Assembly: GCA_003222385.1 (NCBI GenBank)
Contig: QHVV01000047.1
Location: 12,576 to 46,224 of the forward strand
Length of the DNA stretch: 33,649 nucleotides
Direction of reading: 5' to 3'
Source: Acidobacteriota bacterium
Lineage (GTDB): Bacteria > Acidobacteriota > Thermoanaerobaculia > UBA5066 > Gp7-AA6
A program made the translations under genes and the position numbers. The stretch's first letter is position 1. Each line of letters opens with the position of its first letter. The notes beneath the pieces are model-generated. The model was not told the origin of the DNA. It did not search any database and worked only from the letters and a program-made list of their open reading frames with translations. This document shows positions 813 to 28,354 of this stretch, in pieces.

Positions 813-3509
813 GCCGTCGAAGACGCGGCCGTTTCTTTCGACAGCGCCGCATGGGCGGCCGCGAGGCGGGCGACGGCCACGCGGAATGGAGAGCAGGAGA
901 CGTAATCCAGGCCCGCGCCGTGAAAGAACGTGATCGAGCGGGGATCTCCTCCGTGCTCTCCGCACACTCCCACCTTCAAGCCGGGTTTCGCCGCGCGGCC
1001 GCGCTCGGTCGCGATCGAAACGAGCTCGCCGACACCCGGCTGATCGATCGTTCCGAAGGGGTCGTCCGGCAGGATCCCGAGCTCGATGTACGCGGGCAGA
1101 AAGGAGGCCGCGTCGTCGCGGGAGTAGCCGTACGTCATCTGGGTCAGGTCGTTGGTCCCGAACGAGAAGAAGTCGCAGTTCGCCGCGATCTCCGCGGCCC
1201 GCAGAGCCGCGCGCGGGATCTCGATCATCGTGCCGACCCGGTACGGCACCGCATCGCCCGTCTCTCCCGCGACCAGACGGGCGGTCTCGTCGACCATGAT
1301 CTTCAGGCGGTCGAATTCCCCTTTCGTGCCGACGAGCGGGATCATGACCTCGGGGCTCGGTCGAAGCCCTTCGCGCCGGACCGCCGCCGCCGCTTCGAAG
1401 ATGGCGCGGACCTGCGTCTCGTAGATCTCGGGATACGTGATTCCCAGGCGGCACCCGCGGTGGCCGAGCATCGGGTTGGCCTCGGCCAGGGAGCGGACGC
1501 GCTCGCGAAGCTTCTCGGCGGTGATGCCGAGCTCCTCGGCCGTCTTCTTCACGGCGGCGTCCTCGTGCGGCAGGAATTCGTGGAGCGGCGGGTCGAGGAG
1601 GCGGATCGTGACCGGTCTCTCCCCCATTTCGCGGAAGATCCCGATGAAATCCTCGCGCTGCATGGGAAGGAGCTTCGCGAGGGCCTTCCGGCGATCGGCC
1701 TCCGAGTCGGCCACGATCATCTGGCGCACGGCCACGATCCGGTTTTCGCCGAAGAACATGTGCTCGGTGCGGCAGAGCCCGATGCCCTCCGCCCCGAAGA
1801 GCCTCGCGACGCGCGCGTCCGTGGGAGTGTCGGCGTTCGCGCGGACGCCCAGGCGGCGCGAGCCGTCGGCCCATTCGAGGAGCCGTTGGAAGGACGCGAA
1901 GAGCGGAGACTTCTCGGGCGGGAGGGTGCCGTCCACGAGGACGCGGAGGACTTCGGAGGGTTGCGTCGGGAGCTGTCCCAGGAGGACGTCGCCCGCGGTG
2001 CCGTCCACCGAGAGGAAGTCGCCTTCCTTCGCCGTGAGGTTGCGGGCGCGGAGTTCGTGCCGCCTCTCGTCCACCGTGATCTCGCCCGCGCCCACGACGC
2101 AGGTTTTGCCCATGCCGCGGGCGACGACCGAAGCGTGACTCGTGATCCCGCCCCGCGTCGTCAGGATTCCGACGGCCGCGTGCATGCCCGCGATGTCTTC
2201 GGGCGAGGTCTCGACCCGCACGAGCACGACCGGGTCTCCCTTGCGCGCCATCTCGACGGCCCGATCCGCGGTGAACGCGATCCGACCGCAGGCGGCGCCC
2301 GGGCCGGCCGGCAGCCCCCGGGCGAGGAGACGCCCTCCCTGGACCGCCGCCTCCTTCTCTTTCGCAGGAAACACCGGCGCCAGGAGTTGGACGAGCTGCT
2401 CCGGCTCGACCCGCAGCACCGCTTCCTTTTCGGAGATCAACCCTTCTGCGACCATATCGGTCGCGACCCGGACCGCGGCGAAGCCCGTCCTCTTGCCGTT
2501 GCGCGTCTGGAGCAGATAGACGCGCCCCTCTTCGATCGTGAACTCCAGGTCCTGCATGTCGCGGAAGCTCTTCTCGACGAGATCCCGAACCCGGACGAGC
2601 TCCGCGTACGCCGCAGGCATCGTCTCCTCGAGCGACTTCCCGGAGCCGTCCGCTGCCAGCGGGTGCGGCGTGCGGATCCCGGCCACGACGTCTTCCCCCT
2701 GCGCGTTCGCGAGGAACTCCCCGTAGAACTTCTTTTCGCCGGTCGCCGGGTCGCGGGTGAATGCCACTCCGGTCGCGGAGCGCTCGCCCCGATTGCCGAA
2801 CACCATCGCCTGAACGTTCACCGCGGTGCCCCACTCCTCCGGGATCCGGTAGAGCCGGCGGTACTCCTTCGCGCGGGGGTTGTTCCACGACCGGAAGACC
2901 GCGCCGATCGCGCCCCAGAGCTGCTCGCGCGGATCGTCCGGGAAGGACGCGCCGCGGCGCCGCACGACTTCCTCGTAGCGATCGACGACCCATCGCAGGT
3001 CCTCGGCCGAGAGCTCGGAGTCGAACTTCGCGCCATTCCTCGAACTCCTCGCGCGGAATTTCCAGGACGATGCCGGAGTACATCTGGAGGAACCGCCGGC
3101 GGCAGTCGAGCGCGAAGCGTTCCCCGGCGGACGCGGCGAGGCCGGCCATGGCCGCCCGCGTCAAGCCGAGGTTCAGGATCGTGTCCATCATGCCGGGCAT
3201 CGAAGAGCGCGCGCCGGACCGCACCGAGACCAGCAGCGGGTTCGAGGCGTCGCCGAACTTCCGGCCCGTCGATCGCTCGACACGCGCGAGCGCTTCCTCG
3301 ACTTCCGGCCGAACGCCGTCGAGGTTTCCCGTCCGCAAGTAATCCAGGCATACAGACGTCTCGATCGTGAAACCGGGCGGCACCGGAATTCCGAGCGCCG
3401 TCATCTCGGCCAGGCCGGAGCCCTTCCCGCCGAGGATTTCTTTCCCCAGCCCGGCTCCTTCGGCGTGGCCGTCACCAAAGTAATGCACTCGCTTAACTGT
3501 TGCTGCCAT
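809..3509 (-). CDS. ppdK: Pyruvate, phosphate dikinase, interrupted by a frameshift near 3030-3045
   Basis: N-terminal part from ATG 3509 (MAATVKRVHYFGDGHAEGAGLGKEILGGKGSGLAEM...SSMPGMMDTILNLG); C-terminal part is ORF 809..2965 (EQLWGAIGAVFRSWNNPRA, GGITSHASVVARGMGKTCVVG, VGVCGEHGGDP). The parts lie in different frames; 2701 nt is not a multiple of 3. Confidence 0.9.
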
Positions 3510-3526
3510 CAGCGGAGACACTGTCG

Positions 3527-3581
3527 CGCGGCCGGACGCGGACCCGGTCGGCGGGTCAACACTCATGGCCGTCCGGCCGCG
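3527..3581. repeat. 12-bp perfect inverted repeat with 31-nt spacer in the ppdK 5' leader
   Basis: CGCGGCCGGACG (3527-3538) and CGTCCGGCCGCG (3570-3581) in the glyS-ppdK gap. Confidence 0.7.
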
Positions 3582-8881: not shown

Positions 8882-9106
8882 ATGGGACCGGTCTGGAGGC
8901 TCATCCGTGGACAGAAGGACGTCTGCCACCGGTGTGGCCGCGAAATCGTGGATTTCCCCGCGGTCGGCCGCGTCGTAGACTTCCAGTTCCGGCCGGTCGA
9001 AAAATACTGCTGGGACTGTTACCGCTATATCCAGCCGTTCGTCGACGAGATCGCATCGGAGGCGCAGGACCCCTACCAGCCGGTGACGAAGCCGGCGATC
9101 CCTTGA
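8882..9106 (+). CDS. Small zinc-ribbon-like protein (two CxxC pairs)
   Basis: 74 aa: ...KDVCHRCGREIVDFPAV...EKYCWDCYRYIQPFVDE...; TTGA junction with mqnE. Confidence 0.7.
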   Translation: MGPVWRLIRGQKDVCHRCGREIVDFPAVGRVVDFQFRPVEKYCWDCYRYIQPFVDEIASEAQDPYQPVTKPAIP

Positions 9107-10283
9107 ACCGGCCCCCGCCCGACGCCTCCGACCGGTTGGCGGCGGCGTTCCGCGGTTCCGACCTCGGTCCGATCGCTCAGAAAATCCTTTCGGGGGAGCG
9201 CCTTTCCTTCGAAGACGGCGTGCGGCTCTTCGAGAGCCGCGACTTTCTCGGGTTGGGACGCCTCGCGAACCACGTCCGCGAAAGGCGCCACGGCAACGCC
9301 GCCTTCTACAACGTCAACCGCTATCTCAACCCGACGAACCTGTGCTGGGTCGACTGCGCCCTGTGCGCGTGGGCCAAGAAAGTGAACGAGCCGGGGGGCT
9401 ACGAGCTCGCGATCGACGAGTGCGTCGAGGAGGCGGGACGCGGATACAGCGAAGCGGTCACCGAGTTTCACGTCGTCGGCGGGCTCCATCCAACGTGGCC
9501 TTACGGCTACTACACGGGCCTCCTCCGCGCGCTAAAGAAGCGGTTCCCGAGGTGCATTTGAAGGCGTTCACGATGGTCGAGCTCGACTGGATCGCCCACG
9601 TCGGCCGGCGGCAGGTCGCCGACGCGATCCGCGACCTGCGCGAGGCCGGGATGGACTCCTGCCCCGGCGGCGGAGCCGAAATCTTCGAGCGGCGGGTCCG
9701 GGACGTCATCTGCAGGAACAAGATTTCGGGGGAGAGGTGGCTGGAGATCGCGCGGGAGTGCCATGCCCAGGGGGTCCGCACGAACGCGACGATGCTGTAC
9801 GGACACGTCGAGACGATCGAGGACCGCGTGGACCACCTCCTGCGCCTTCGCGAGCTGCAGGACGAGACCAGCGGCTTCACCGGGTTGATCCCGCTCGCCT
9901 TCCATCCCGAGAACACTCCCCTCTCGTATCTGCCGGCGACCTCCGGTCAGCTCGATCTCCGGGTGATCGCGGTCTCGAGGCTCCTCCTCGACAACTTCCC
10001 GCACGTCAAGGCGTACTGGATCCAGATCGGCACGAAGCTGGCGCAGGTGGCCCTCTTCTTCGGCGCGGACGACCTCGTCGGGACCGTCGTCGACGAGACG
10101 ATCACGCACGCCGCGGGAGCGACGACCGCGTCGGGCATGAGCCGGACGGAATTCGAGTCGCTCATCCGGGAGTCGGGCCGCGAGCCGTTCGAGCGCGACG
10201 CCGAATACCGGCGGGTCGTGCGCGGCCCCGGCTCGAGCCCGGTTCCGCGCGAACCTTCCCCCGGCGTTTCCGTTTCCGTTTGA
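9103..10283 (+). CDS. mqnE: Aminofutalosine synthase (radical SAM, menaquinone biosynthesis), frameshifted near 9545-9552
   Basis: N-part YNVNRYLNPTNLCWVDCALCAWAKK (CxxxCxxC) in frame of ORF 8932..9561; C-part HLKAFTMVELDWIAHVGR...GGGAEIFERRVRDVICRNKIS in frame of ORF 9342..10283. TTG start at 9103. Confidence 0.9.
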
Positions 10284-12619: not shown

Positions 12620-13588
12620 CTACCGGACGGCCGGAGCCGCGACGAGAAGAGAACCGACCTTCTCGTAGATCCGAGGGATGACGCCGGGCACCGTCCGCAC
12701 GCCTTTAGTGAAAGCGGCGATCACGAAGTCCGAACCGTTCGGAAGAACAGCGCGCGCCACCAGGTGGTGATAGTCGTATGCGTCGCCCGACTTCGACCAG
12801 ATGCGCGTGCCCGCCGGCAGCTTTTTCCCGGCGAGCCGGGCGTCCTCGAGCTCGAGGTCGTCGTACGGCTTCTCGGACGTGATGTCGCGAGCGAGCAGGC
12901 CGAGCATTTCCTGCGTCCCGGCGGCCCCGACGATCTCGCCCCGCGCGATCTCCTTGAACAGGCGGGCGACGTCGTCCGGCGTGAAGCGGTTGCGGTTGCG
13001 GCCTCCGTCCCGGAAGATCTGCTCGCGCCCGTAGGCGTCTTCGCAGAAGGTCTTCTGGTTCGCGTTGAAGTCACCGTAGCCGCGGGCGAGGAAGAACCGG
13101 TTCATGGCGTTTCGCCGTTTCTTCCACTTCTCCCACTTGCGCGCGCTCGTGATCTCCGGCCCGGACGTGGTGTCGGTGATCGCGTCCACGACGAAGCCCG
13201 TCGCGTCGTTCGAAGAAACCGTGATCATGTCGTGGACGGCGCGCACGATCTCCGGGGTGTCCTTCAAGCGGCCGGCTTCCTTCTCGCTCTCGTAGTAGAC
13301 GAGGTAAAACGCCTTGACGACCGAGGCCGGGTAATAGGCGACGTTTCCGCGGTACGAGCCGGCGGCGAGCGCGCCCCCGGAGCGCGGCGCGAGGTCGATG
13401 ACCGAGATCGAAAGCCCTTCGGGGGTCAACCCCGCCGATCCGAACTCGGCGACCACTTCGGCAGCGATCCGGGCGAGAGCGCTGTCGAGCTCCGGCAATC
13501 GCTCGATCTGAGCGCTGCGGGGCATTTCCGCCGCGCGGAGAAAAGTCGAAAGGAAGAAGAGGAGAAGAACGGAGACGGTCCGCGTCAG
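12620..13588 (-). CDS. Class A beta-lactamase-fold serine hydrolase, secreted; probable CTG start
   Basis: SxxK in YYPASVVKAFYLV, SSND (SDN-like), KSG (KTG-like). CTG at 13588 is preceded by GGAG and begins a signal peptide (TRTVSVLLLFFLSTFLRAAE). Confidence 0.75.
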   Translation of the reverse strand: MTRTVSVLLLFFLSTFLRAAEMPRSAQIERLPELDSALARIAAEVVAEFGSAGLTPEGLSISVIDLAPRSGGALAAGSYRGNVAYYPASVVKAFYLVYYESEKEAGRLKDTPEIVRAVHDMITVSSNDATGFVVDAITDTTSGPEITSARKWEKWKKRRNAMNRFFLARGYGDFNANQKTFCEDAYGREQIFRDGGRNRNRFTPDDVARLFKEIARGEIVGAAGTQEMLGLLARDITSEKPYDDLELEDARLAGKKLPAGTRIWSKSGDAYDYHHLVARAVLPNGSDFVIAAFTKGVRTVPGVIPRIYEKVGSLLVAAPAVR

Positions 13589-13878
13589 GATCGCGCTCCG
13601 CGCGAGTCCGGGACGAGGCGACCGACCCCGGTCGGGAGCGCCGCGCGCTCGCGCCGTCTCCGCCGGACGATCAGGAACGCGACCGTGCCGACGGCGGTCC
13701 ACGGCACCGCGATCAGGAGCAGGATCGAATAGTAGAAGCCGCGACCGAGAGAAGCGGACCCGCCCGGGTACTCGCCGTCCGAGGTGGCGTCCTTGCAGAG
13801 CGGACACGCGGAGAGCGCCGCGGGCAGTACCAGGGCGGCGAGCAGGAGGACGGCCGCGACGCGCACGCTCGGGCTCAC
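13585..13878 (-). CDS. Small membrane protein with CPLCKD motif, respiratory-cluster associated
   Basis: 97 aa: signal peptide then SACPLCKDATSDGEYPGGSASLGRGFYYSILLLIAVPWTAVGTVAFLIVRRRRRER. Confidence 0.75.
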   Translation of the reverse strand: MSPSVRVAAVLLLAALVLPAALSACPLCKDATSDGEYPGGSASLGRGFYYSILLLIAVPWTAVGTVAFLIVRRRRRERAALPTGVGRLVPDSRGARS

Positions 13879-13888
13879 GGAGGCGATG

Positions 13889-14314
13889 CTACCGAAACGG
13901 CCCGCGGCCGTAAAGGTGGTAGAGCATCACGTAGACGACGACGCCGGTGACCGAGACGTAGAGCCAGACCGGGAACGTCCACTTCGCGATGCGGCGGTGC
14001 TTGTCGTCGAATCGCTTCAGCCCGAGGTACAGCGTCCTCAGCACCAGGGGGAGGACCAGGATCGCCAGCAGCGTGTGGGAGCCGAGGATCGCGAAGTAGA
14101 TCGAGCGGACGGGCCCCACGCCGGCAAAGCGGACGGAACCCACGCGGGCGTGATAGGCCAGGTACGACACGAGGAAACAGGCGGATGTCCCGGCCGCGGC
14201 AAGCATCCAACGCCGGTGGCGTTCGATCTCGAGGCGTCGGATCGCCCGGTACGCGACGAGGAGGAACACGGCGCTGGCCGCGTTCAACGTCGCATTGATC
14301 GTCGGATGGATCAG
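13889..14314 (-). CDS. DUF420 domain membrane protein, probable CTG start
   Basis: (CTG)IHPTINATLNAASAVFLLVAYRAIRRLEIERHRRWMLAAAGTSACFLVSYLAYH...KWTFPVWLYVSVTGVVVYVMLYHLYG; CTGA overlap with subunit III stop. Confidence 0.85.
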   Translation of the reverse strand: MIHPTINATLNAASAVFLLVAYRAIRRLEIERHRRWMLAAAGTSACFLVSYLAYHARVGSVRFAGVGPVRSIYFAILGSHTLLAILVLPLVLRTLYLGLKRFDDKHRRIAKWTFPVWLYVSVTGVVVYVMLYHLYGRGPFR

Positions 14315-14910
14315 AAAAGGTAAATGATCGTGAAGAGGATGATCCAGACGAGATCGACGAAATGCCAGTAGAGGCCGATCGTTTCGACCCCCTGGTGGTG
14401 GGCCTGCGTGTACTTTCCGAGAAACGCCTTCCCCGTAACGAACGACATGCAGACGACGCCACAGAACACGTGGAAGCCGTGAAAGCCGGTCGTCGTGTAG
14501 AAGACGGACCCGAAGAGGGAGACGTGGGGGTTGAAGCCTTCGTGAAGCAGGTGGCGGTACTCGTAGGCCTGGATCGAGAGAAAAGTCGCGCCGAAGAGGA
14601 GGGTGAGCGACAGGAAGAGCTTCAGCTTCCGGAGATCCCCGTCGCGGACGGAGGCGAGGGCCTTGACCATCGTCACGGATGAGCAGATGAGGATGAACGT
14701 GTTGAACGCGGTCAGCCAGATGTTGAGCGTGTTGCCGGGGTGCGGCCAGGTGGGGCTCGCGAACCGCAGCACGATGTAGGACCCGATGAGCCCGGTGAAG
14801 AACATGACCTCGGAACAGAGGAAGACCCACATCCCCATCTTGTCGTGGGGAATCCCGGTCGCCGACGGAGGCTCGAGCGCGTGTTCGTGCGCGATCGCGT
14901 GGTTCGCCAT
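14311..14910 (-). CDS. coxC: Cytochrome c oxidase subunit III
   Basis: 199 aa; KMGMWVFLCSEVMFFTGLIGSYIVLRFASPTWPHPG, TTGFHGFHVFCGV, YWHFVDLVWIILFTIIYLF. Confidence 0.95.
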   Translation of the reverse strand: MANHAIAHEHALEPPSATGIPHDKMGMWVFLCSEVMFFTGLIGSYIVLRFASPTWPHPGNTLNIWLTAFNTFILICSSVTMVKALASVRDGDLRKLKLFLSLTLLFGATFLSIQAYEYRHLLHEGFNPHVSLFGSVFYTTTGFHGFHVFCGVVCMSFVTGKAFLGKYTQAHHQGVETIGLYWHFVDLVWIILFTIIYLF

Positions 14911-14919
14911 CGTCTGCCT

Positions 14920-15198
14920 CTAGGGCCTCGGGAGGACGTGCTCGCCGATCCCGACGGAGACCAGGATGGCTCCGAGGATCAGCGTCGACGCGACGATCAC
15001 GCCGAGGCTCTTCCTTTCGAACTTCAGGTGCATGAAGTACAGGGCGACCAGCAGCGCCTTGAAACCGGCGAGCGAAACGAGCCCCAGGATCAGGATCGGC
15101 CGCGGGACCTTGAGGGTCGAATACCCGACCTCCACGACCGTCACGGAGAGGAGAATCCAGAAGATCCCCATGTAGTTCGGGTGCTTGTGCTCGGTCAT
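14920..15198 (-). CDS. Cytochrome c oxidase subunit IV-type protein
   Basis: 92 aa from ATG 15198: MTEHKHPNYMGIFWILLSVTVVEVGYS...GFKALLVALYFMHLKFERKSL. Confidence 0.88.
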   Translation of the reverse strand: MTEHKHPNYMGIFWILLSVTVVEVGYSTLKVPRPILILGLVSLAGFKALLVALYFMHLKFERKSLGVIVASTLILGAILVSVGIGEHVLPRP

Positions 15199-15206
15199 GG
15201 CGCCTC

Positions 15207-15323
15207 CTACGTCTGCGCCCGCGAAATGATGAACAGGATCGAACCCACGAAGAGGGCCGCCGCCACGAGAACCAGGAAGAGGAGCACCCGCCGGTTGGCT
15301 CGGGTGGGGGCGGCGGCGTTCAC
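15207..15323 (-). CDS. 38-aa single-TM protein between ctaB and subunit IV
   Basis: GTG start overlapping ctaB stop (GTGA): VNAAAPTRANRRVLLFLVLVAAALFVGSILFIISRAQT. Confidence 0.6.
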   Translation of the reverse strand: MNAAAPTRANRRVLLFLVLVAAALFVGSILFIISRAQT

Positions 15324-16204
15324 CGGTCGAGCACCATGAGGCCGAGCAGCGCCGGGAGGTACAAAACCGAAACCAGGAAGACGATCCGGGCCGCCTGGAC
15401 GGATCGCTTGACCGCGAAGACGACGGAGCAGCCGACGAAGACCGCCCCGAGCCCGAGGGCGCTCCAGAGGTAGCCCGGCCCCGCCGCAGCAAAGGCACCG
15501 GCGGCGAGCGTCACCGGAATGAGCGCCGCCGCGTAAGCCACGGTCTGGCGGGCCGTGGACTTCCCGTCCGGGTCGGTCACCGGCAGCATCGGGAAGCCCC
15601 CGCGCGCGTAGTCGTCCCGGTAGATCCATGCGATCGAAAGGAAGTGCGGGAGCTGCCAGAGGAACAGCACCGCGAAGAGCGCCCAGGCCTCGCGGCCGAG
15701 CGCTCCGCGCGCCGCGGCCCATCCCATCATCGGCGGAATGGCGCCGGGTACGGCACCGACGAGCGTGCAGAGCGAGGTCACGCGCTTCAACGGCGTGTAG
15801 ACGAGAACGTAGCTCGCGAGCGAGATGGCGGCGAGCAGCGCGGTCAACCCGTTTACGGAGCCGGCGAGGAGCGCGATTCCGACGCCGGAGATCGCGAGCC
15901 CGAACGCGAGCGCGTCCGTCGGGGCGAGGCGGCCCGAGGGAAGCGGCCTCGAGCGGGTCCGCGCCATCCGCGCGTCCGCGTCTCTCTCCGCCCACTGGTT
16001 GAGCGCCGACGCGCCGCCCGACACGAACGCGGTCCCCACGAGCAGAGAAAGGAAGACCGCGGGATGGAACGACGGCCCGACCGCGAGCGCATACCCGACC
16101 GCCGTCGTCACCAGGACGAGAAAGGTGATCCGCGGCTTCGTCAGCTCGACGAAGTCGGAGATGCGCGCGGGCGACGCGGCGATCGCGGTTCCGGCTACTT
16201 GCAC
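15320..16204 (-). CDS. ctaB: Protoheme IX farnesyltransferase (heme O synthase)
   Basis: 294 aa; ELTKPRITFLVLVTTAVGY, NQWAERDADARMARTRSRPLPSGRL, YTPLKRVTSLCTLVGAVPGAIPPMMGW. Confidence 0.95.
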   Translation of the reverse strand: MQVAGTAIAASPARISDFVELTKPRITFLVLVTTAVGYALAVGPSFHPAVFLSLLVGTAFVSGGASALNQWAERDADARMARTRSRPLPSGRLAPTDALAFGLAISGVGIALLAGSVNGLTALLAAISLASYVLVYTPLKRVTSLCTLVGAVPGAIPPMMGWAAARGALGREAWALFAVLFLWQLPHFLSIAWIYRDDYARGGFPMLPVTDPDGKSTARQTVAYAAALIPVTLAAGAFAAAGPGYLWSALGLGAVFVGCSVVFAVKRSVQAARIVFLVSVLYLPALLGLMVLDR

Positions 16205-16205
16205 G

Positions 16206-17153
16206 TCACTGTTCAGAAAGCAACATTGAGACTGCGCCGCGGCGTTCGCTGCGCGAACGGCGGCTGAGAGATTTCAAACCGGGGCTTCCGATGGCCAGCG
16301 CCAGCGACGTCCCAAGCAGCAGAGCGCCGGTCGCGACGTGCGCCGTGGTGATCGCCACGTTCTTGCGGGAGACGACCGTCAGCGCCCCGAGCGCGATCTG
16401 CGCGAGAACGAGCGCTCCCAGAAAGAGGCCGGTCCTCCGGCGCCCCCCGCGGAACGCGGCGACGACCGTCGCGAAGACGAGAGCCGCGACGACGATCGCC
16501 CAGGCGCGATGCGCAAATGCGATCGCCACCGGAAACGAATCGAGCCGAGGCACGACGCGTCCGAGCGAAAGGGGGAAGTCCGGAATCGCGAGCCCGGCCT
16601 TCGTATGGCGCATGACCGCGCCGATCGCCAGCTGTAGGAAAACGGCGAAGACCGTGAGGGCCGCGAGACGCGTGAGCGGCTCCCGCTCCGCCGCCGCGGT
16701 CGGATCCCACCGGGGCGACGTGACCACGGCGATCGCGACCGTCAGGCAGAAGAAGGTCTGCGCCAGGCAGGCGTGCGCGACCGACACCGCCGTCGGCAGG
16801 AGGAAGATCACGGTCAAGCCGCCGAGGACGCCCTGTGCGACGACGGCGCCGACGGCGAGAAGGCCGAGGCGCCGGACCCAACGGCGCGGCTCCCGGCGTG
16901 CGAGCCAGACGGCGAGAACGACCGTCAGGATCCCGACGGTCGTCGCGACCATCCGGTGCCCGTGCTCGTAGAAGACGCCTCCGACCATCGGAGGCATGAC
17001 CTTTCCGTACGACAGCGGCCAGTCCGGGACGGAGAGGCCCGACTCGGTCGACGTCACGAGACCGCCCGCCACGATCAGCCCGAGCGTGGCGGCCGCCGTC
17101 ACGACGGCGAAGCGGTGCAGGGCGATGCTCCGCCCTTGGACGGCCTCACCCAT
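16206..17153 (-). CDS. ctaA: Heme A synthase
   Basis: 315 aa; GGLVTSTESGLSVPDWPLSYGKVMPPMVGGVFYEHGHRMVATTVG and second half-repeat RHTKAGLAIPDFPLSLGR...FAHRAWA. Confidence 0.93.
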   Translation of the reverse strand: MGEAVQGRSIALHRFAVVTAAATLGLIVAGGLVTSTESGLSVPDWPLSYGKVMPPMVGGVFYEHGHRMVATTVGILTVVLAVWLARREPRRWVRRLGLLAVGAVVAQGVLGGLTVIFLLPTAVSVAHACLAQTFFCLTVAIAVVTSPRWDPTAAAEREPLTRLAALTVFAVFLQLAIGAVMRHTKAGLAIPDFPLSLGRVVPRLDSFPVAIAFAHRAWAIVVAALVFATVVAAFRGGRRRTGLFLGALVLAQIALGALTVVSRKNVAITTAHVATGALLLGTSLALAIGSPGLKSLSRRSRSERRGAVSMLLSEQ

Positions 17154-18924
17154 GGGCGGTGACCGGCCTTCCCGACGGAGGCTCGTTCTGGGGCCAGTGG
17201 TCGTCGGCGCCGCGCTCCGGCGCGCTGTACTCGTACGGCCCGCGGTAAACGGTCGGGATGTCGTGGAAGTTCTCGTGGGGCGGCGGCGACGACGTCTGCC
17301 ACTCGAGCGTGTTCGATCGCCACGGGTTGTCCCCCGCGGGCTGCCCGCGCCGCATCGAGAGGAAGAAGTTCAGGACGAGGATCACCTGGCCGACTCCGAG
17401 AACGAAGAGGGAGATCGTCATGAACTGGTTCATCGGCTGCAGGCCCTTCAGGTGCGCATACTGCGAGTAGTCGTAGATGCGCCTCTGCATCCCGCGCATG
17501 CCGAGGAAGTGCATCGGGAAGAAAACGCAGTTGAACGTGATGAAGGTGATCGCGAAATGGACTCTTCCCCACCGTTCGCTCATCTTCCGGCCGAACATCT
17601 TCGGGTACCAGAAGTAGAGCCCTGCGAAGGCGCCGAAGAGAGATCCTCCGAAGAGCACGTAGTGGATGTGCCCCACGATGAAGTACGTGTCGTGGATGTA
17701 GATGTCCACGGGCGTCGACGCCATGAAAATGCCGGACAGCCCGCCGATCACGAACATCGAGACGAAGCCGATCGCGTTCAGCATCGGCGTCGTGAAGTGG
17801 ATCGTGCCTCCCCAGAGGGTCCCCAGCCAGTTGAAGACCTTGATGGCCGAAGGCACCGCGATGACCATGGTCGAGATCATGAAGGTCGTCCCGAGGATCG
17901 GGTTCATTCCGCTCTGGAACATGTGGTGGCCCCACACGATCCAGCCGAGGCCGGCGATCCCTAGGATCGAGTAGGCCATCGCGCGGTAGCCGAAGATCGG
18001 CTTGCGGGAAAAGACCGGCAGGATCTCCGACGTGATCCCCATCGCCGGCAGGATCATGATGTAGACCTCGGGATGTCCGAAGAACCAGAAGAGGTGCTGC
18101 CAGAGGAGCGCCTGTCCCCCTCCCGCGTTCGTCAGGGGCTGGCCCGAGATGATCAACCCCTTCGGCAGAAAGAACGTCGTGCCGAGCACGCGATCGAACA
18201 GCAGCATGATCATGGCCCCGGAGAGGACCGGCAGCGCGAGGAGGAGCAGCACCGCCGTCACGAAGAGGGCCCAGACGGTCAGCGGCAGGCGGAAGAACGT
18301 CAGCCCCGGCGCGCGCAGGTTCAACACCGTGGTGATGAAGTTGACCGCGGTCAGGAGCGACGAGATTCCCAGCACGAGGAGGGCGAGCAGCCATAGAGTC
18401 TGCCCCTTCGGCTGCACGGCGGAGAGCGGCGCGTACGACGTCCAGCCCGACTGGGCGGCACCCCCCGTCACGAAGAAGGACCAGAGGATGAGGACGGCGC
18501 CGGGCACGGCCGTCCAGAACGAGAACATGTTGAGCGTCGGAAACGCCATGTCGCGCGCGCCGATCTGCAGCGGCACGACGAAGTTGCCGAACGCGCCGAT
18601 CAGGATCGGCATGATCGCGAAAAAGATCATGATCGTCGCGTGCATCGTGAAGAGCGAGTTGTAGAACTCCGGGAGCATCTGCCCGTTCGGCATCCCCTCC
18701 GGGGCGAGCTTGCCCATGAACGCGATCGGTCGCCCGGGCCAGGCGAGCTGCCAGCGCACGAGCGTCGCGAGCAGTCCGCCGATGACCAGCATGAAGAGTG
18801 CATAGAACAGGTACTGCTTCCCGATGACCTTGTGGTCCAGCGAGAAGATGTACTTGCGCCAGAACGACGTCGGCTCCGGATGGACTCCCGGCGGGAGCTC
18901 TCGGACGACGGCAATACTGCTCAT
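17146..18924 (-). CDS. coxA: Cytochrome c oxidase subunit I (A-type heme-copper oxidase)
   Basis: Start ATG 18924 overlapping coxB stop; WQHLFWFFGHPEVYIMILP, GHHMFQSGMNP, DTYFIVGHIHYVLFGGSLFGAFAGLYFWYPKMFGR. Confidence 0.97.
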   Translation of the reverse strand: MSSIAVVRELPPGVHPEPTSFWRKYIFSLDHKVIGKQYLFYALFMLVIGGLLATLVRWQLAWPGRPIAFMGKLAPEGMPNGQMLPEFYNSLFTMHATIMIFFAIMPILIGAFGNFVVPLQIGARDMAFPTLNMFSFWTAVPGAVLILWSFFVTGGAAQSGWTSYAPLSAVQPKGQTLWLLALLVLGISSLLTAVNFITTVLNLRAPGLTFFRLPLTVWALFVTAVLLLLALPVLSGAMIMLLFDRVLGTTFFLPKGLIISGQPLTNAGGGQALLWQHLFWFFGHPEVYIMILPAMGITSEILPVFSRKPIFGYRAMAYSILGIAGLGWIVWGHHMFQSGMNPILGTTFMISTMVIAVPSAIKVFNWLGTLWGGTIHFTTPMLNAIGFVSMFVIGGLSGIFMASTPVDIYIHDTYFIVGHIHYVLFGGSLFGAFAGLYFWYPKMFGRKMSERWGRVHFAITFITFNCVFFPMHFLGMRGMQRRIYDYSQYAHLKGLQPMNQFMTISLFVLGVGQVILVLNFFLSMRRGQPAGDNPWRSNTLEWQTSSPPPHENFHDIPTVYRGPYEYSAPERGADDHWPQNEPPSGRPVTAHG

Positions 18925-19679
18925 GAGGCATTCTCCTTGGCTTGCTCCGCCAGCCAGCGCTCGAACTCCTCGGGCGTCTCGACGGTGACGAAGCCCTTCA
19001 TGCGGAAGTGACCCAGGCCGCACAGCTCGGCGCAGGCGATCTCCCAGTGACCGACCCGCGTCGCTTCGAGCCAGATCCGCGTCGTCATCCCGGGCACCGC
19101 GTCCTGCTTCACCCGGAACTCGGGCAGGAAGAACGAGTGGATGACGTCCTTCGAGTGAAGCTCGACCACGAGCGGGCGTCCGACCGGAAAATGGAGCTGG
19201 TTCAAGGTGACCAGGTCGTCCGGCGTGCCGAGCTTTCCGTCCGGCCCGGGATATCGGATGTTCCAGGAGAACTGCTCCCCGATCACCTCGACGTGCATCG
19301 CCCCCCGCGGCATGTTCTGCTTGATTTCCGCCCAGCTGCGCCGGGAGAGGAGAGCCAGGATCACGCAGATCACGGCGGGGACGATCGTCCAGATGACCTC
19401 GAGCCGGTTCGATCCGTGCGTGTAGTGAGCGCGCCTTCCCTCGCGATGTCGATACCGGAAGAGGAAGAAGAGCAGGAGCGCCTCGACCAGGACGAAGATG
19501 GAGCCGGTGATCCAGAGGATCAGGTAGAAGAGGCCGTCGATCTTGCTCCCGAACGTCGCGACGTTCTCGGGAAGGCGGAGCCAGAAAGGAAGGGCCGAAG
19601 CGAGCGACGGCACCGCCGCCGCGCCGAGGACGCCCGAAGCGACCCGGAGCACCCGGCCTCGCGGCGCGATGCTCGCCAC
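18921..19679 (-). CDS. coxB: Cytochrome c oxidase subunit II, CuA site present, no heme c domain
   Basis: 252 aa; CuA motif CAELCGLGHFRM; no CxxCH; ends soon after the CuA domain. Confidence 0.96.
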   Translation of the reverse strand: MASIAPRGRVLRVASGVLGAAAVPSLASALPFWLRLPENVATFGSKIDGLFYLILWITGSIFVLVEALLLFFLFRYRHREGRRAHYTHGSNRLEVIWTIVPAVICVILALLSRRSWAEIKQNMPRGAMHVEVIGEQFSWNIRYPGPDGKLGTPDDLVTLNQLHFPVGRPLVVELHSKDVIHSFFLPEFRVKQDAVPGMTTRIWLEATRVGHWEIACAELCGLGHFRMKGFVTVETPEEFERWLAEQAKENAS

Positions 19680-19689
19680 GGAGGCGGTC

Positions 19690-20502
19690 CTAACCCTTGA
19701 AGCTGAAGTCGACCGTCTTGGACTCCGATCCGCTGACCGTCACGTTCTGCGTCTGCGCGCCGTATTTCTCCTGCCAGGCCTCGATCACGTAGTTGCCGGG
19801 CGGCAGGTTCTTGATCTCGTACGTTCCCTGCTCGTTGGTGACCGCGAAGAAGGGATGGTTCAGGACGCCCGCGTAAGCCCCCATCCACTTGTGGACGTCG
19901 CACTTGAAGCGGACGGGCATCTCGACCGTGTCGAACTTCTTGATCGTCTCCATCCCCTTGAACGGCTGGCCGATGTTGAACTCCGGGTTCTTCTTCGGCA
20001 GCGCGTGGATGTTGTGGAGCGTCGAATCGCTGTTCAAGATCCTCAACGGCTGACCGGCCTGGATCCCGAAGATGTGGGGATGGTACTGGCATCCCTGCTG
20101 GTCGATCGTCACCGGCGTCGTGGGGGCCGGATAAGTGCCGGTCACCCCTTCCTTGACGTAGACGAACACCCACTGGAGCGTGTTGTTCGGATTGACCACG
20201 ACTTCCTGCGAGTAGACGGGAGTCGCGTGCGCCGACTTGCAGAAGGCGTCCGCCTCCATTTTGATCTTCTCCATGGTGGGAGCGGTTCCCGCGAATGAGA
20301 CCTTCCCGGTCACGGCCGCGCTGCCGGCGGCCGGCGCTCCGGCGGGCGCGGCGGCTGGAGCTCCCGCGGCCGGCGCTGCCGCGGCCGGCACCGGGGTCGC
20401 TTCCTCTTCGAGCAGGGCATCTTCGTCTTTTCCGCCGCCGCAGGCGACGAACGAGACGGGAACCGCGAGCGTCAGGAGCAGAACGAGCGCGCGCTTCGAC
20501 AT
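19690..20502 (-). CDS. Lipoprotein with cupredoxin-like copper site and carboxypeptidase-regulatory-like domain
   Basis: Lipobox VSFVAC; Ala/Pro linker; LHNIHALP and VRFKCDVHKWMGAYAGVL (type 1 copper-like C-x2-H-x2-M); C-terminal GTYEIKNLPPGNYVIEAWQEKYG. Confidence 0.8.
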   Translation of the reverse strand: MSKRALVLLLTLAVPVSFVACGGGKDEDALLEEEATPVPAAAAPAAGAPAAAPAGAPAAGSAAVTGKVSFAGTAPTMEKIKMEADAFCKSAHATPVYSQEVVVNPNNTLQWVFVYVKEGVTGTYPAPTTPVTIDQQGCQYHPHIFGIQAGQPLRILNSDSTLHNIHALPKKNPEFNIGQPFKGMETIKKFDTVEMPVRFKCDVHKWMGAYAGVLNHPFFAVTNEQGTYEIKNLPPGNYVIEAWQEKYGAQTQNVTVSGSESKTVDFSFKG

Positions 20503-20726: not shown

Positions 20727-21374
20727 GTGGCTTCTGCGCGAATCGAGGCGGTCGACCTCTCGAAGTCGTTCGCGGGAGTCCCGCTCTTCGGCGGCGTTTC
20801 CTTCCTCCTCGACCGTGGAGTCCTCGCCGTCACGGGACCCAACGGCTCCGGGAAGACGACTCTCTTGAAGATCCTCGCGTCACTCATGCGTCCTTCGACG
20901 GGAACGGTTCGCGTCGAATCGGAAGGTCGAGAGCTCTCGCGCGACGAGCGGCGCTCCCGCGTGGGATGGTCCGGCCCCGATCTGGCCTTCTATCCCGAGC
21001 TGACCGCGGAACAGAACCTCGCATTCTTCCGGAGGGCGGCCGGCTTCGCCTCCGAGCGGCATGACCTCCGGACGCGCCTCGCCGCAGTGGGCCTCGACGG
21101 CTCCGGGACGGCGGTCGAACACTTCTCGACCGGCATGCGGCAGAGGCTGCGGATCGCGTTCTCGTTTCTTCTCGATCCCGATGTCGTGCTCTTGGACGAG
21201 CCGATGGCGGGTCTCGACGCCGACGGACGGGAGGCCGTCCACCGCGCCGTGGCGTCCGCGGCCCGAAGAGGTCCGGTGATCGCGGCCGCGACGGACCTGG
21301 AGGATTTGCCGCCGGCCGACGAGGTGCTCGAGATCCGCGGACGCGAAACGGTATCCGGAAAACCGAAACCGTGA
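20727..21374 (+). CDS. ccmA: Heme exporter ATP-binding protein CcmA
   Basis: 215 aa, GTG start; Walker A GPNGSGKTTLLK, signature FSTGMRQRL, Walker B VVLLDEPMAGLD; followed by ccmB/ccmC. Confidence 0.85.
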   Translation: MASARIEAVDLSKSFAGVPLFGGVSFLLDRGVLAVTGPNGSGKTTLLKILASLMRPSTGTVRVESEGRELSRDERRSRVGWSGPDLAFYPELTAEQNLAFFRRAAGFASERHDLRTRLAAVGLDGSGTAVEHFSTGMRQRLRIAFSFLLDPDVVLLDEPMAGLDADGREAVHRAVASAARRGPVIAAATDLEDLPPADEVLEIRGRETVSGKPKP

Positions 21375-22057
21375 CGCCGACCCGGCTCGGCTTCTGGTCG
21401 CGAGCGTGGGCCGTCTGCGCCAAGGATGCTGCGCAGGAGGGGAAGCGGCGCATCGCGCTCGGATCGATCCTCTTTTTCGCGGCGACCGCTCTCGCGCTCG
21501 TCTCCTACGCGGTCGGACCCTTCGGGCTTCCGGCGGACGCGAGGGCCAGTCTCGACGCTGCCCTCCTCTGGATCATCCTTTTCTTTTCGGCGGCGACCGG
21601 CCTGCCGCGGGCCCTCGTGAGAGAGGAGGAGACCGGCACGGGCCTTGCGCTGCGCGCGGTCGCACCGGGCGCCGTCGTGATCGCCGGAAAGGCGGCGTTC
21701 AACTTCCTCCTCTTCCTCGCGATCGCCGCGCTCTCGGTTCCGACTTTCGCCGTGCTCCTCGAGTGGCGCATCGAGTCGTCGGCCGCGCTGGTCGCCGTCG
21801 TCCTGCTGGGAGGCGTCGGGCTCTCGATCGTCTCGACGTTTCTCTCCGCTCTCGTGGCCCGCGCCGGCCAGCGCAACGTTCTTTTTCTCGTCGTCTCGTT
21901 TCCCCTTCTCGCGCCTCTCCTCCTGCCGGCGATCGCCGCCACGGTCGCCGCGTCGCAAGGATCTTTCGCGGCGGCGCCGCTGCGCGTCCTCGTGGCCTAC
22001 GACGGCGCAGCGACGTGCGCCGCGTATCTCCTGGCCGGAGCGGCGTGGGAGGATTGA
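21371..22057 (+). CDS. ccmB: Heme exporter protein CcmB
   Basis: 228 aa polytopic protein; ALLWIILFFSAATGLPRALVREEETGTGLALRAVAPGAVVIAGKAAFNFLLF; GTGA overlap with ccmA. Confidence 0.85.
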   Translation: MTPTRLGFWSRAWAVCAKDAAQEGKRRIALGSILFFAATALALVSYAVGPFGLPADARASLDAALLWIILFFSAATGLPRALVREEETGTGLALRAVAPGAVVIAGKAAFNFLLFLAIAALSVPTFAVLLEWRIESSAALVAVVLLGGVGLSIVSTFLSALVARAGQRNVLFLVVSFPLLAPLLLPAIAATVAASQGSFAAAPLRVLVAYDGAATCAAYLLAGAAWED

Positions 22058-22070
22058 CACTGCGAATGCC

Positions 22071-22101
22071 GCGGGGACAGGCCCTGCGGGCCTGCACCCG
22101 C
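22071..22101 (+). repeat. Dispersed hairpin repeat, copy 1
   Basis: GCGGGGA-CAGGCCC-TGC-GGGCCTG-CA-CCCGC in the ccmB-ccmC gap. Confidence 0.85.
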
Positions 22102-22119
22102 CGCAGTTCATGAGGAACG

Positions 22120-22767
22120 ATGAAACTTCTGAAACTTCTGCTCCTTCCCTACATGGCGGCGGTGATCGCGGGCGCATTCCTCTGGGTCGAGCCGGCGGAG
22201 GGATTCCTCGGCGAGTCGTCGCGGATCGTCTTCTTCCACGTTCCGTGCGCCTGGACGGCGGCGCTCGCGTTTCTGGTGGCCGCCGGATATTCGCTCGCCT
22301 ATCTTCTCTCGAGAAACGCCCGCTTCGACTCTGTCGCCCATGCCGCCGTCCGGCTGGGACTGCTCTTCGCGGCGCTGACCCTCGTGACCGGATCGCTCTT
22401 CGCGCGCATCATGTGGGGATCGTTCTGGAACTGGGACCCGAGGGAGTCCTCGTACCTGCTCCTCCTCTTTCTCTACGGGGCGTACCTCTTTCTCCGCGCG
22501 GCCGTGGATGACCCCGAGCGCCGTGCCCGAATCGCCGCCGCGTATGCGCTCTTCTCGGCGGTGCTGATGCCCTTCCTGGTGTTCGTGGTGCCGCGCGTGA
22601 CCCGATCGCTCCATCCCCAGACGGTCATCAACCCGCAGGGGAAGATCCTGATGGACACTCCGACGAAGACCGTATTCTTCGCCGGGCTCCTCGGGTTCAC
22701 CGCGCTCTTCCTCTGGCTGCTCGAGCTGGAAGCTCGCGGGGCGCGCGTCCGACAGCCCACGAATTGA
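22120..22767 (+). CDS. ccmC: Cytochrome c biogenesis protein CcmC
   Basis: 215 aa; FFHVPCAWTA, WWD-type motif MWGSFWNWDPRESSYLLL, VTRSLHPQTV. Confidence 0.95.
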   Translation: MKLLKLLLLPYMAAVIAGAFLWVEPAEGFLGESSRIVFFHVPCAWTAALAFLVAAGYSLAYLLSRNARFDSVAHAAVRLGLLFAALTLVTGSLFARIMWGSFWNWDPRESSYLLLLFLYGAYLFLRAAVDDPERRARIAAAYALFSAVLMPFLVFVVPRVTRSLHPQTVINPQGKILMDTPTKTVFFAGLLGFTALFLWLLELEARGARVRQPTN

Positions 22768-22833
22768 CGCCGACTCGAATCTCCGGCCGGCGAAAGCGTT
22801 GATTTCCAGAGGCAGAGAAGGAAGAATCGTTCG

Positions 22834-22944
22834 GTGAGCAGCCTGGGCTTTCTCGCGGCGGTCAACATCGTCATCTGGATCGGGCTCTTCTTCTACGTCT
22901 GGCGGCTCGACCGGCGCCTGACCGAACGGGAGCGGGACCGGTGA
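22834..22944 (+). CDS. ccmD: CcmD-like small membrane protein
   Basis: 36 aa from GTG: VSSLGFLAAVNIVIWIGLFFYVWRLDRRLTERERDR; between ccmC and ccmE; GTGA overlap with ccmE. Confidence 0.7.
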   Translation: MSSLGFLAAVNIVIWIGLFFYVWRLDRRLTERERDR

Positions 22945-23348
22945 AGAGGGGATACTGGATCGCGGCCGGGCTGGCGGTCGTCTTCGTCCTTCTGGGCGTG
23001 ACGTCCTTCACGAAAACGCTGACGCCGTACGTGACGTTCGACGAGGCGCGAAAGGCGCGCGGCGTCGTCCAGGTCATGGGCGGCCTCGACAAGACCAGCG
23101 ATCGGTACGACACCACCACGCAGCGGCTCTCGTTCGACCTCGTGGACGAGAAGGGCCGCCGGATGCCGGTCATCTACGGCGGCATTCGCCCCGCGAACTT
23201 CAAGGACGCGATCTCGATCGTGGCCATCGGTCGCTACCACGAGGGCCGGATCGACGCCGAGAAGCTCCTCGTGAAGTGCCCTTCCAAGTACCAGGGCGCG
23301 GAAGTCGAGAGAGCGTACCGCTCCGCGCGGCCGCCGTCGAAATCGTAA
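22941..23348 (+). CDS. ccmE: Cytochrome c maturation protein CcmE, CxxxY variant
   Basis: 135 aa; TM anchor, YVTFDEA...VQVMGGL, VAIGRYHEGRIDAEKLLVKCPSKYQG: Cys replaces the usual heme-binding His (23277-23291). Confidence 0.88.
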   Translation: MKRGYWIAAGLAVVFVLLGVTSFTKTLTPYVTFDEARKARGVVQVMGGLDKTSDRYDTTTQRLSFDLVDEKGRRMPVIYGGIRPANFKDAISIVAIGRYHEGRIDAEKLLVKCPSKYQGAEVERAYRSARPPSKS

Positions 23349-23362
23349 GGAGCGCTCTCGCG

Positions 23363-25682
23363 ATGTACTTCTGGCCGGGGGTCGCCGCGATCTGGGCCGC
23401 GCTTCTTTTCGGGCTCGCCTCTCTCATCGCCTACTTCCGCGTGGACCGGGGCCGAAGCGACCTCCTCCCCTTTGCCCGCGGCGCCTACGCCGCTTTCGCG
23501 ACGTCGATCGTCGCGTCGTCCGCGGTCCTCCTCGTCCTTCTCCTGCAGCACCGCTTCGACGTCTCCTACGTCAACTCCTACTCGAGCCGCGATCTCCCGC
23601 TCCACTTCCTGATCTCGACGCTCTGGGCCGGGCAGGAGGGCTCCTTCCTGCTCTGGTGCTTCTGGGGAGCCTTGATCGGGCTGCTGGTCTGGCGCAGCGC
23701 GAAAGAGCAGGAGGCGCCGGTCATGATCGTCTATCTCGCGACCTTTCTCGGAACGGTCGCGATCCTCTGCAAGCAGTCTCCGTTCAAGCTCCTGCCGCCG
23801 CCGGTTCCCGAGGACGGGGTCGGACTGAACCCTCTCCTCCAGGATCCGTGGATGGTGATCCACCCGCCCGTGATGTTCCTGGGCTTCGCGTCTCTCTCGG
23901 TCCCGTTCTCGTTCGCGATCGCCGCGCTCTGGAAGAAGCGGTGGGACGGCTGGGTCACGCGCGCGATCCCGTGGGCGCTTCTGACTTTCGTGATGCTGGG
24001 GACCGCGATCCTGATGGGCGGCTACTGGGCCTACAAGACGCTCGGGTGGGGAGGCTATTGGGGCTGGGATCCCGTCGAGAACACGAGCCTCGTCCCGTGG
24101 CTCTTCACCGCCGCGCTCGTGCACGGGATGTTTCTCCAGCGGGTGCGGCAGCGCCACCGGAAGATCAATCTGATCCTCGCCTGCTCCGCCTTCGCGACGA
24201 TCCTTTACGGCACTTTCCTGACGCGTTCGGGCGTGCTGGCGGATTTCTCGGTGCACTCGTTCATCGATCTCGGAATCACCGGGTGGCTCGTGGCGATCCT
24301 GCTCGCTTTCACCACTCTCTCGATCGGACTGATCGCGGTGCGGTGGAAAACGATTCCGGCCCTGGCCGAGGAAGAAACCGGACTGCTCTCTCGCGGCGTC
24401 CTCTTCGTTCTCGGGATTGCCACGTTCTGCGCGCTGGCGTTCGTGATCCTTCTCGGAACCTCGGCGCCGCTCCTGACGAGGCTGTCCGGCAATCCGTCGC
24501 AGGTGCAGACGTCGTTCTATGGGAAGACGGCGACGCCGGCGGCACTCGTGCTGCTCGTCCTGTCCGGGCTCGTGCCGTTCGTCTCGTGGAAGGCGGCGGC
24601 CGCCCGGATCGCTGGCGGTCGGCACGGGCGTGGTGATCCTCGCGCTGGCGCTCGGCGCGCGCGATCTCTCGAGCCTCGCCTTCCTCTTCCTGGCGGGTTT
24701 CGCGGCGGACATGAACCTTCGCGCCGTCCTGCGCAAGGCGAAGAACGGAAAGCTCACCGGAGCCGGCGGATATCTCGCCCACGTCGGCGTGGGCATCATG
24801 CTCGCCGGCATCGTGGTCTCCGGCGTCTACACCCGCTCCCAGCGGCTCACCCTCGTCCGGGACCGGCCGACGAAAGTCGGCGATAAGACGCTGACGTTCC
24901 TGCGCGTGGTGCCGGGAACCGCGACGCGCAAACAGGCGATGGAAATCCGGGTCGAGACGGCCGCCGGCAAGGTCGGATACGCCTATCCCAAGATGTACGT
25001 GAACACGAAGACCGGCCAGCTCATGGCGAACCCGGCGATCCGCCGATCGGCGGTGCTCGACGACTACATCTCCCCGCAGCAGTACGACCCCGGCCAGCCG
25101 GAGCGGGTCGGCCGCGACGTGGCCTTGCGGAAGGGCACGACCACGAACGTCGAGGGGACCGGCTTCACGTTCCGCGAGTTCAACGCCGACCGTTCCGCCA
25201 TGCTCCGGGGCGGAAAGGAAATTCTCGTGCTGACCGATCTCACGATCACGCCGCCCGACGGCGGCAGGCACGATGTGACGCTGCGCTACGTGTACCACAT
25301 GGACGGAGGCGAGCCGGAAGCGCCGGAGATCGAGATCCTTGGAAGGCCGGGCGCCTTCATGAAAGTCGAGGCAGTCTCGCCGTCGGACGGTTCCGTCGTC
25401 CTTCGCGTCCGCGGCCTGGCGAAAGACCCGCGCTCCGAGTTCCAGGCCGCGACACGCGAATCACTGTCCGTCGAGGTGACGAAGAAGCCGCTCATCAACC
25501 TGGTCTGGGCCGGCTTCTACGTGATGATGGCGGGAGGGCTGCTCGCGCTCGTGAAGCGCGCGCGCGAGGCGCGCCGCGCCGTCTTCGTCGCGGAAGCGTC
25601 CCGGGAGAAAACGAGCGCGCCTCTGCCGCCCGCCGGGCGCCCCGTTACGGCGCCCGGTTCGAGCCTCCCGACAGAAGCCTGA
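23363..25682 (+). CDS. ccmF: Heme lyase CcmF, apparent frameshift near 24595-24620
   Basis: N-part MYFWPGVAAIWAALLFGLASL...LLWCFWGALIGL...GGYWGWDPVENTSLVPWLFTAALVHG; C-part SLAVGTGVVILALALGARDLSSLAFLFLAGFAADMNLRAVL... in another frame (ORF 24519..25682). Confidence 0.92.
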
Positions 25683-25865: not shown

Positions 25866-26627
25866 ATGAAGACGAAAGTTCTCGTTCTTGCACTGTTCTC
25901 GCTTGGCGTCCTCGCCGCGACGACCGGGGCTCAGACGAAAACGATCACGATCTCGGGCTCCGGAAACCAGGTCGTGCTCGTGAGCGGCAACCTGGCCGCG
26001 TCGAAGGGGACGGCGATTGCGCTCGCCTCGACCCGGTCGTCCTTCTTCGTGCCGGGCTCCGGGAAGATCGGGCTTCAGCCGGGGCAGGTCCTCGTTCTCG
26101 GTTCGACCGGCGGGGCAACGACCGCGGCCTCCGCGGACACCGTGATCGTTTCACCGAGGATGGGGTTGACGCCGCTTTCCGCGACGGTCACGCAGCAGGT
26201 GTTTCCGGGTGATCTCGTGCGGGGGACTCCCACCGCCACGGGTCTGACCGACGCGACCGGCGGTTTCGTCATCGGGCCCAACGGGTTCCCGGTCGCAATC
26301 ACGCCGGCGGCTCAAACCGTTCCGACGACGATCGGAGCGAACGGCTTCCCGACGCTCGGATCGCCGAACGCCGCTCCGACGATCGACACGAACGGCTTCC
26401 CGGCCGGAACCGGGACGGCGTTCGCGCAGACCGGCGTGACGGCGGGCACGGCGTCGACGGCGACGACCGCCACCAGCGCGACGAGTACCGCCACGACGAT
26501 CCGCGTGCCGGCCACGGTCGGCACGGTCTCGACGGCGCCCCGCGCGGCTGCTTCGGCGGCGACGGCTTCGGGCATGACGGCGACGGCCGCCCCGGCAACC
26601 GCCGCGACTTCGGCATCGCCCCGCTGA
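25866..26627 (+). CDS. Secreted Ala/Thr-rich protein with three NGFP repeats
   Basis: Signal peptide MKTKVLVLALFSLGVLAATTGAQT; NGFP at 26280, 26340 and 26391; low-complexity A/T-rich C-terminus. Confidence 0.65.
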   Translation: MKTKVLVLALFSLGVLAATTGAQTKTITISGSGNQVVLVSGNLAASKGTAIALASTRSSFFVPGSGKIGLQPGQVLVLGSTGGATTAASADTVIVSPRMGLTPLSATVTQQVFPGDLVRGTPTATGLTDATGGFVIGPNGFPVAITPAAQTVPTTIGANGFPTLGSPNAAPTIDTNGFPAGTGTAFAQTGVTAGTASTATTATSATSTATTIRVPATVGTVSTAPRAAASAATASGMTATAAPATAATSASPR

Positions 26628-27514: not shown

Positions 27515-28354
27515 GTGAGGCTCGGGTCTCTCGAGCTCGACATCGTGCGCGGCTCCGGCTTCCGTCTGGACGGCGGGGCGATGTTCGGCATCGTTCCGAA
27601 AGTTCTCTGGGAGAAAAAGTTTCCGGCGGACGAACGAAACCGGATCCGGCTCGCGACGAACTGCCTCCTCGTCCGGGGAGGCGGTTACACCGCGCTCGTC
27701 GAGAGCGGCCTGGGAGAAAAGTGGGACTCGAAATCCCGGGAGATCTACGCGATCGACGGCGCGAGGACGATCGAAGACAGCCTCGCGGAGAAAGGCGTCC
27801 CTCCCGGGGACGTGGACGCGCTCGTGCTGTCGCACCTGCACTTCGACCACGCCGGCGGCTCCACACGCCGGGAGGATGGCCGGGCGGCGCCGGCCTTTCC
27901 GAACGCGACCGTCTATGTCCAGTCGGAAGAGCTGTCTCATGCGCGGTCCCCGAACGAGCGGGACCGCGCGTCTTATCGCCGCGAGGACTGGGAGCCGTGC
28001 GCCGACGCCGGTCTGCTCGCGGAGGTTTCGGGCGAAGTCGAGGTCCGGCCGGGACTGACGGTCGTCCCCGTCCGTGGCCACAACGCCGGCATGCAGGCGA
28101 TCCGGATCGACTCGGGCGGCCGGACCGCGTTCTACTTCGCCGATGCACTCCCGACGACCGCGCACGTCGCGATCCCCTGGATCATGGGGTATGACCTCTA
28201 CCCCGTCGATCTGATCGAGAACAAGAGGCGGCTCGTCGCGCAGGCGGTCGCCGAGAAGTGGCTGTGCATCTTCGAGCACGATCCGGAGGTGCCGTGGGGC
28301 ACGATCGTGGAGGACGAGGAAGGAAAGAGGCTGGTCGAGGCCGCGAGCGTTTAA
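27515..28354 (+). CDS. MBL-fold metallo-hydrolase (lactonase-like)
   Basis: 279 aa; VLSHLHFDHAGGSTRREDGRAAPAFPNATVYVQ; C-terminal CIFEHDPEVPWG. Confidence 0.85.
   Translation: MRLGSLELDIVRGSGFRLDGGAMFGIVPKVLWEKKFPADERNRIRLATNCLLVRGGGYTALVESGLGEKWDSKSREIYAIDGARTIEDSLAEKGVPPGDVDALVLSHLHFDHAGGSTRREDGRAAPAFPNATVYVQSEELSHARSPNERDRASYRREDWEPCADAGLLAEVSGEVEVRPGLTVVPVRGHNAGMQAIRIDSGGRTAFYFADALPTTAHVAIPWIMGYDLYPVDLIENKRRLVAQAVAEKWLCIFEHDPEVPWGTIVEDEEGKRLVEAASV

Follow-up and report, generated by a model that had tools for sequence, protein, structure and literature searches.

The CcmE protein encoded in the window (here the whole stretch of DNA that was analysed, 33,649 nucleotides of an Acidobacteriota genome) is very likely the CcmE of a System I* apparatus for cytochrome c maturation. 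It departs in nothing from the known Cys type, and is a known variant in a new place. Allen et al. 2006 and Goddard et al. 2010 described System I*; according to the review of Stevens et al. 2011 (PMC3601427) it occurs in archaea, delta-proteobacteria, chloroflexi and firmicutes, and its most frequent motif is CPSKY. To judge from sequence comparison, the two CcmE types found within the class Thermoanaerobaculia are different operons, exchanged as units.

Cys-type CcmE and its heme-binding motif

The preliminary description of this DNA had read the heme-binding segment as CxxxY instead of HxxxY, and the codons at 23277-23291 agree with this reading (Table 1). LVKCPSKY of the window CcmE aligns with LAKHDENY of E. 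coli CcmE (8ce8_E, 1sr3), which places Cys113 on His130; a profile built from 30 relatives likewise pairs Cys113 with the KCP segment in CcmE of D. vulgaris (NMR structure 2KCT). The heme position is occupied by Cys, with no His there, and Cys113 is the sole cysteine of the protein. Five residues (K112, C113, P114, K116 and Y117) do not vary among the 30 aligned Cys-type relatives, and S115 hardly varies; since the motif is conserved in these relatives, and every Cys-type genome of the class (44 of 44) has CPSKY, it is not a matter of chance. In the AlphaFold model (pLDDT 90.7), one N-terminal helix is followed by a beta barrel, with the motif immediately past the last strand, and the top matches in the PDB were CcmE structures (8ce8, 1j6q, 1sr3, 2kct). 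To judge from its sequence, the product is a membrane-anchored OB-fold protein, and it is encoded within ccmABCDEF. The PF03100 search of the whole genome, a draft of 231 contigs and 95.3% completeness in which absences are not proof, gave a single match, and no second CcmE of the HxxxY type was found beside it.

Table 1. Features of the ccm operon in the window
Feature	Position	Strand	Basis
ccmA, heme ABC transporter ATP-binding subunit	20727-21374	+	TIGR01189, top NCBIfam match, 112.7 bits, under the cut-off of 131.6; position at the operon head
ccmB, membrane subunit	21371-22057	+	PF03379, 62.9 bits
ccmC, WWD-domain protein handing heme to CcmE	22120-22767	+	PF01578, 97 bits; TIGR01191, 116 bits; product contains WGSFWNWDPRE
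ccmD-like small membrane protein, 36 aa	22834-22944	+	TIGR04391, 39 bits, over cut-off
ccmE, Cys-type heme chaperone, N-terminal TM helix and OB fold	22941-23348	+	GTG start at 22941, stop codon ending at 23348, 135 aa; PF03100 (residues 35-118, 58 bits, E 1e-15); AlphaFold model
C-P-S-K-Y heme-binding motif (Cys113, Tyr117)	23277-23291	+	codons TGC CCT TCC AAG TAC; alignment on E. coli His130
ccmF, heme lyase, two frames (23363-24592, 24612-25682)	23363-25682	+	PF01578, PF16327; continuous in relatives
Enlarged CcmF periplasmic part, conserved His to last TM helix, 236 residues	24780-25490	+	

By analogy with the characterised systems, from which the following steps are drawn, CcmABCD would load heme onto Cys113, probably through a thioether bond with a vinyl group of the heme, Tyr117 being the axial ligand, and the heme-loaded CcmE would carry the heme to CcmF, which would pass it, without CcmH, to CXXCH apocytochromes that would be kept reduced by a DsbD-type protein. 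The contribution of the sequence itself to this scheme is Cys113 in place of His and the retained Tyr117. Another view of the chemistry, that Cys113 holds heme by axial ligation only and without a covalent bond, CcmE being a carrier of ferric heme, is in our estimate improbable. For the OB-fold domain of D. vulgaris CcmE, the Cys of which aligns with Cys113, heme was reported to be bound non-covalently (PMC3884852), but this work was performed on the isolated domain; against it stand the covalent heme on Cys reported for the Cys-type CcmE of D. desulfuricans (PMC3601427) and the finding in M. acetivorans that heme attachment depends on Cys and that neither His nor Cys can take the place of the other (PMC9084895). 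A covalent bond may not be general to Cys-type CcmE; for the window CcmE we retain a probable thioether bond.

The ccm operon and the split ccmF

The operon runs in the order ccmABCDEF from 20727 to 25682, with CcmA, B, C, D and F all present and the stop of the ccmD-like gene overlapping the start of ccmE, and a cytochrome c oxidase cluster, assigned from translations, lies head to head with it on the minus strand (ORFs at about 13585-20502). No PF03918 (CcmH) match over cut-off was found in the draft genome (95% complete), nor a ResB, the one sub-threshold match being located on CcmF itself, and the ccm operon holds no CcmG-type gene. The genome does encode one DsbD-type membrane protein, and its 7 matches to PF13442 are candidate cytochrome c substrates. 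Besides CcmF, only CcmC and one HemX-like protein of the genome belong to PF01578; the latter was considered as a second lyase and rejected, being HemX-like and adjoining hemA and hemC (names from translations). Downstream of the operon lie a gene at 25866-26627 for a secreted-looking, Ala/Thr-rich protein of 253 aa with NGFP-type repeats and no Pfam or NCBIfam match, and a gene at 27515-28354 for a protein with a metallo-beta-lactamase fold and a relationship to the quorum-quenching lactonases of the YtnP family (match of 223 bits, under the family cut-off).

The two frames of ccmF meet at 24593-24611, a place at which the window lacks about 23 nt in comparison with its relatives, three of which (L095, L091 and L068) carry a continuous ccmF; the encoded CcmF keeps the WWD domain and four conserved histidines. 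Two other genes of the window are likewise divided between two frames, that of pyruvate phosphate dikinase (PPDK; 809-3566, minus strand) near 2965 and that of aminofutalosine synthase, mqnE (8932-10283, plus strand), near 9550. Three split genes within 33.6 kb suggest that indels arose in the assembly of this draft genome, and the frameshift in ccmF is probably an assembly error. Decay of the system in this strain, with ccmF broken and the operon left as a relic, would also account for the two frames, and the genome offers no PF01578 protein besides CcmC and the HemX-like one to take over from CcmF; this is nevertheless very unlikely, as ccmA to ccmE are intact, seven cytochrome c domain matches are present in the genome, and the split PPDK and mqnE genes point to assembly indels.

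Two operon lineages in Thermoanaerobaculia

From the class, 81 genomes were drawn, of which 78 carried CcmE; the motif was read in 77, the 78th CcmE being a fragment that ends before the motif and was left out. The 77 genomes divide into 44 with CPSKY, among them that of the window and 43 others that were fetched, and 33 with HxxxY, and PF03918 CcmH was found in 33/33 His-type and 0/44 Cys-type genomes. Records of the closest relatives were named Thermoanaerobaculia or Acidobacteria. On the CcmF tree, the His-type and Cys-type operons of the class lie across the deepest split (SH-aLRT 100, quick tree), and a constraint to one clade, applied to the class rows together with the small number of Acidobacteriota records grouping with them, cost 444 log-likelihood units and was rejected (p-AU 6.6e-5). 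Because these are two separate operon lineages, the difference in CcmE type reflects operon replacement and not a point change, and the correlation between CcmE and CcmH in the class goes back to two lineages and does not amount to 77 independent observations. Both types occur in one family of the class (f13), G318 being His-type and G326 Cys-type.

The window operon, as judged from sequence, belongs to a deep lineage of its own, with a short CcmE and a doubled CcmF periplasmic loop, which is common to Thermoanaerobaculia, Zixibacteria, Calditrichota, Eisenbacteria, Armatimonadota and some Bacillota. The close CcmE relatives share the short N-terminal region and LVKCPSKYQ; outside Thermoanaerobaculia they were found in these groups, with Pelosinus among the Bacillota, and in Ignavibacterium. 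Outside Acidobacteriota, PF03918 was over cut-off in 3 out of 46 genomes of this lineage, and the sole strong match among the 46 is of the CxCGC kind. Two Calditrichota (L298, L299) show a weak CcmH-family match in proteins with zinc-ribbon-like N-termini and CxCGxC, a stretch that one of them carries twice. A search for a conserved neighbour that could replace CcmH gave no candidate, since no non-ccm gene, antisense ORFs apart, occurred in more than 8 of the 85 lineage loci.

The enlarged periplasmic loop of CcmF

The CcmF loop measures 212-331 residues in 40/40 CcmF of the window's lineage, which lacks CcmH, versus 115-173 residues in 17/17 CcmF from CcmH-bearing genomes, and the loop is predicted, with good confidence, as an all-beta domain in the model of CcmF from the relative L095; compared as a whole with the PDB, that model gave CcmF (6zmq) as its single significant match. 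Both the loop length and the predicted domain would agree with the doubled loop having replaced CcmH in the window's lineage. We nevertheless hold this replacement to be unlikely, because in 17 Cys-type genomes of the other lineage, with no CcmH found, the loop is near normal, 117-131 residues. CcmH can therefore be missing without a big loop, so that loop size tracks the lineage and stands for one deep event. The enlarged loop as a general substitute for CcmH was rejected on this ground; such a role could apply within the window's lineage only. A ResB-like C-terminus of CcmF was also considered as a special feature and rejected, with ResB matches being present in both lineages (15/40 and 6/17).

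CcmE ligand and CcmH cysteines across Acidobacteriota

For the phylum, 396 Acidobacteriota genomes were drawn, 242 of which carry CcmE. The CPSKY pattern was found in 146 of these 242, and a PF03918 match in 95 of the 146; CcmE fetched from 13 genomes outside the class that lack CPSKY has CASKY, also Cys-type, in 12 cases and His in one (G385). From the CPSKY count together with CASKY in 12 of 13, Cys-type CcmE prevails among the Acidobacteriota examined that carry CcmE. The preliminary description had assigned the Cys variant to archaea and some bacteria and taken it to define a System I variant. The type is indeed a known one, and a recognised variant matching the published System I* (PMC3601427), yet it is common among these Acidobacteriota, and Cys alone does not define a system without CcmH: the rule that Cys-type means no CcmH holds in the class and fails in the phylum, where 95 CPSKY genomes carry PF03918. 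Stevens et al. 2011 (PMC3601427) had made this point before, and give CcmH for about one third of bacteria with Cys-type CcmE.

The cysteines of CcmH differ between the two CcmE types. In the His-type genomes they are RCxxCQ (15/15), and in 38 Cys-type genomes (41 sequences) they form CxCGC or similar, PCC, or another arrangement, with RCxxCQ at the aligned position in 0/38; one sequence (L238) has an RCxxCQ string about 18 residues beyond that position. Proteins of PF03918 with CxCGC or PCC were seen in the Cys-type Acidobacteriota L225, L226, L242, L245, L249-L254 and L263-L294; some are fused to CcmF within a single frame of about 830 aa. Some PF03918 genes are unlinked to ccmE. A single clade of His-type operons was not rejected (p-AU 0.8); the His type may therefore have a single origin in the sample, so that the independent joint switches may number one. 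With somewhat less than even confidence, we propose from these motifs, read within Acidobacteriota, that the heme residue in CcmE and the cysteine motif in CcmH switch jointly, His going with RCxxCQ, and Cys with either no CcmH or CxCGC or PCC. We found no paper stating this pattern, in a search mostly of literature outside subscription.

If the co-change is true, the step of heme transfer would require a partner that suits the heme ligand. The E. coli CcmE variant H130C reportedly fails to pass heme on, and a ligand-matched partner would fit this failure. The window alone is an ordinary case of a known pathway variant, and it is the comparison it opens that could matter: Thermoanaerobaculia hold both CcmE variants, and Acidobacteriota add a third state, in which Cys-type CcmE is accompanied by an unusual CcmH. 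With these states, it can be asked which partner of CcmE must change with the heme ligand, a question raised when System I* proved to work without CcmH. The joint change of CcmE ligand and CcmH motif is the part that may interest specialists.

Comparison with known systems

The window agrees with canonical System I, E. coli CcmABCDEFGH, in CcmA-D, in the OB-fold CcmE and in CcmF with its WWD domain and conserved His, but differs in having Cys instead of His at the heme ligand position and in lacking CcmH: neither an HxxxY CcmE nor an RCxxCQ CcmH over cut-off was detected. Assignment to System II (CcsBA/ResBC) is not indicated either, as ResB was not found. The CcmF loop is 236 residues in the window versus about 117 in His-type relatives. 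The Ccm machinery of M. acetivorans shares with the window the CXXXY CcmE and the lack of CcmH (PMC9084895), but the archaeal machinery is without CcmD and the window has a CcmD-like protein. The closest agreement is with System I* of Desulfovibrio, for which PMC3601427 gives the same combination, a Cys-type CPSKY CcmE with CcmABCDF kept and no CcmH found. In comparison with the Desulfovibrio system, the window represents a sequence lineage of its own with a short CcmE and with an enlarged CcmF loop, which may be a further difference.
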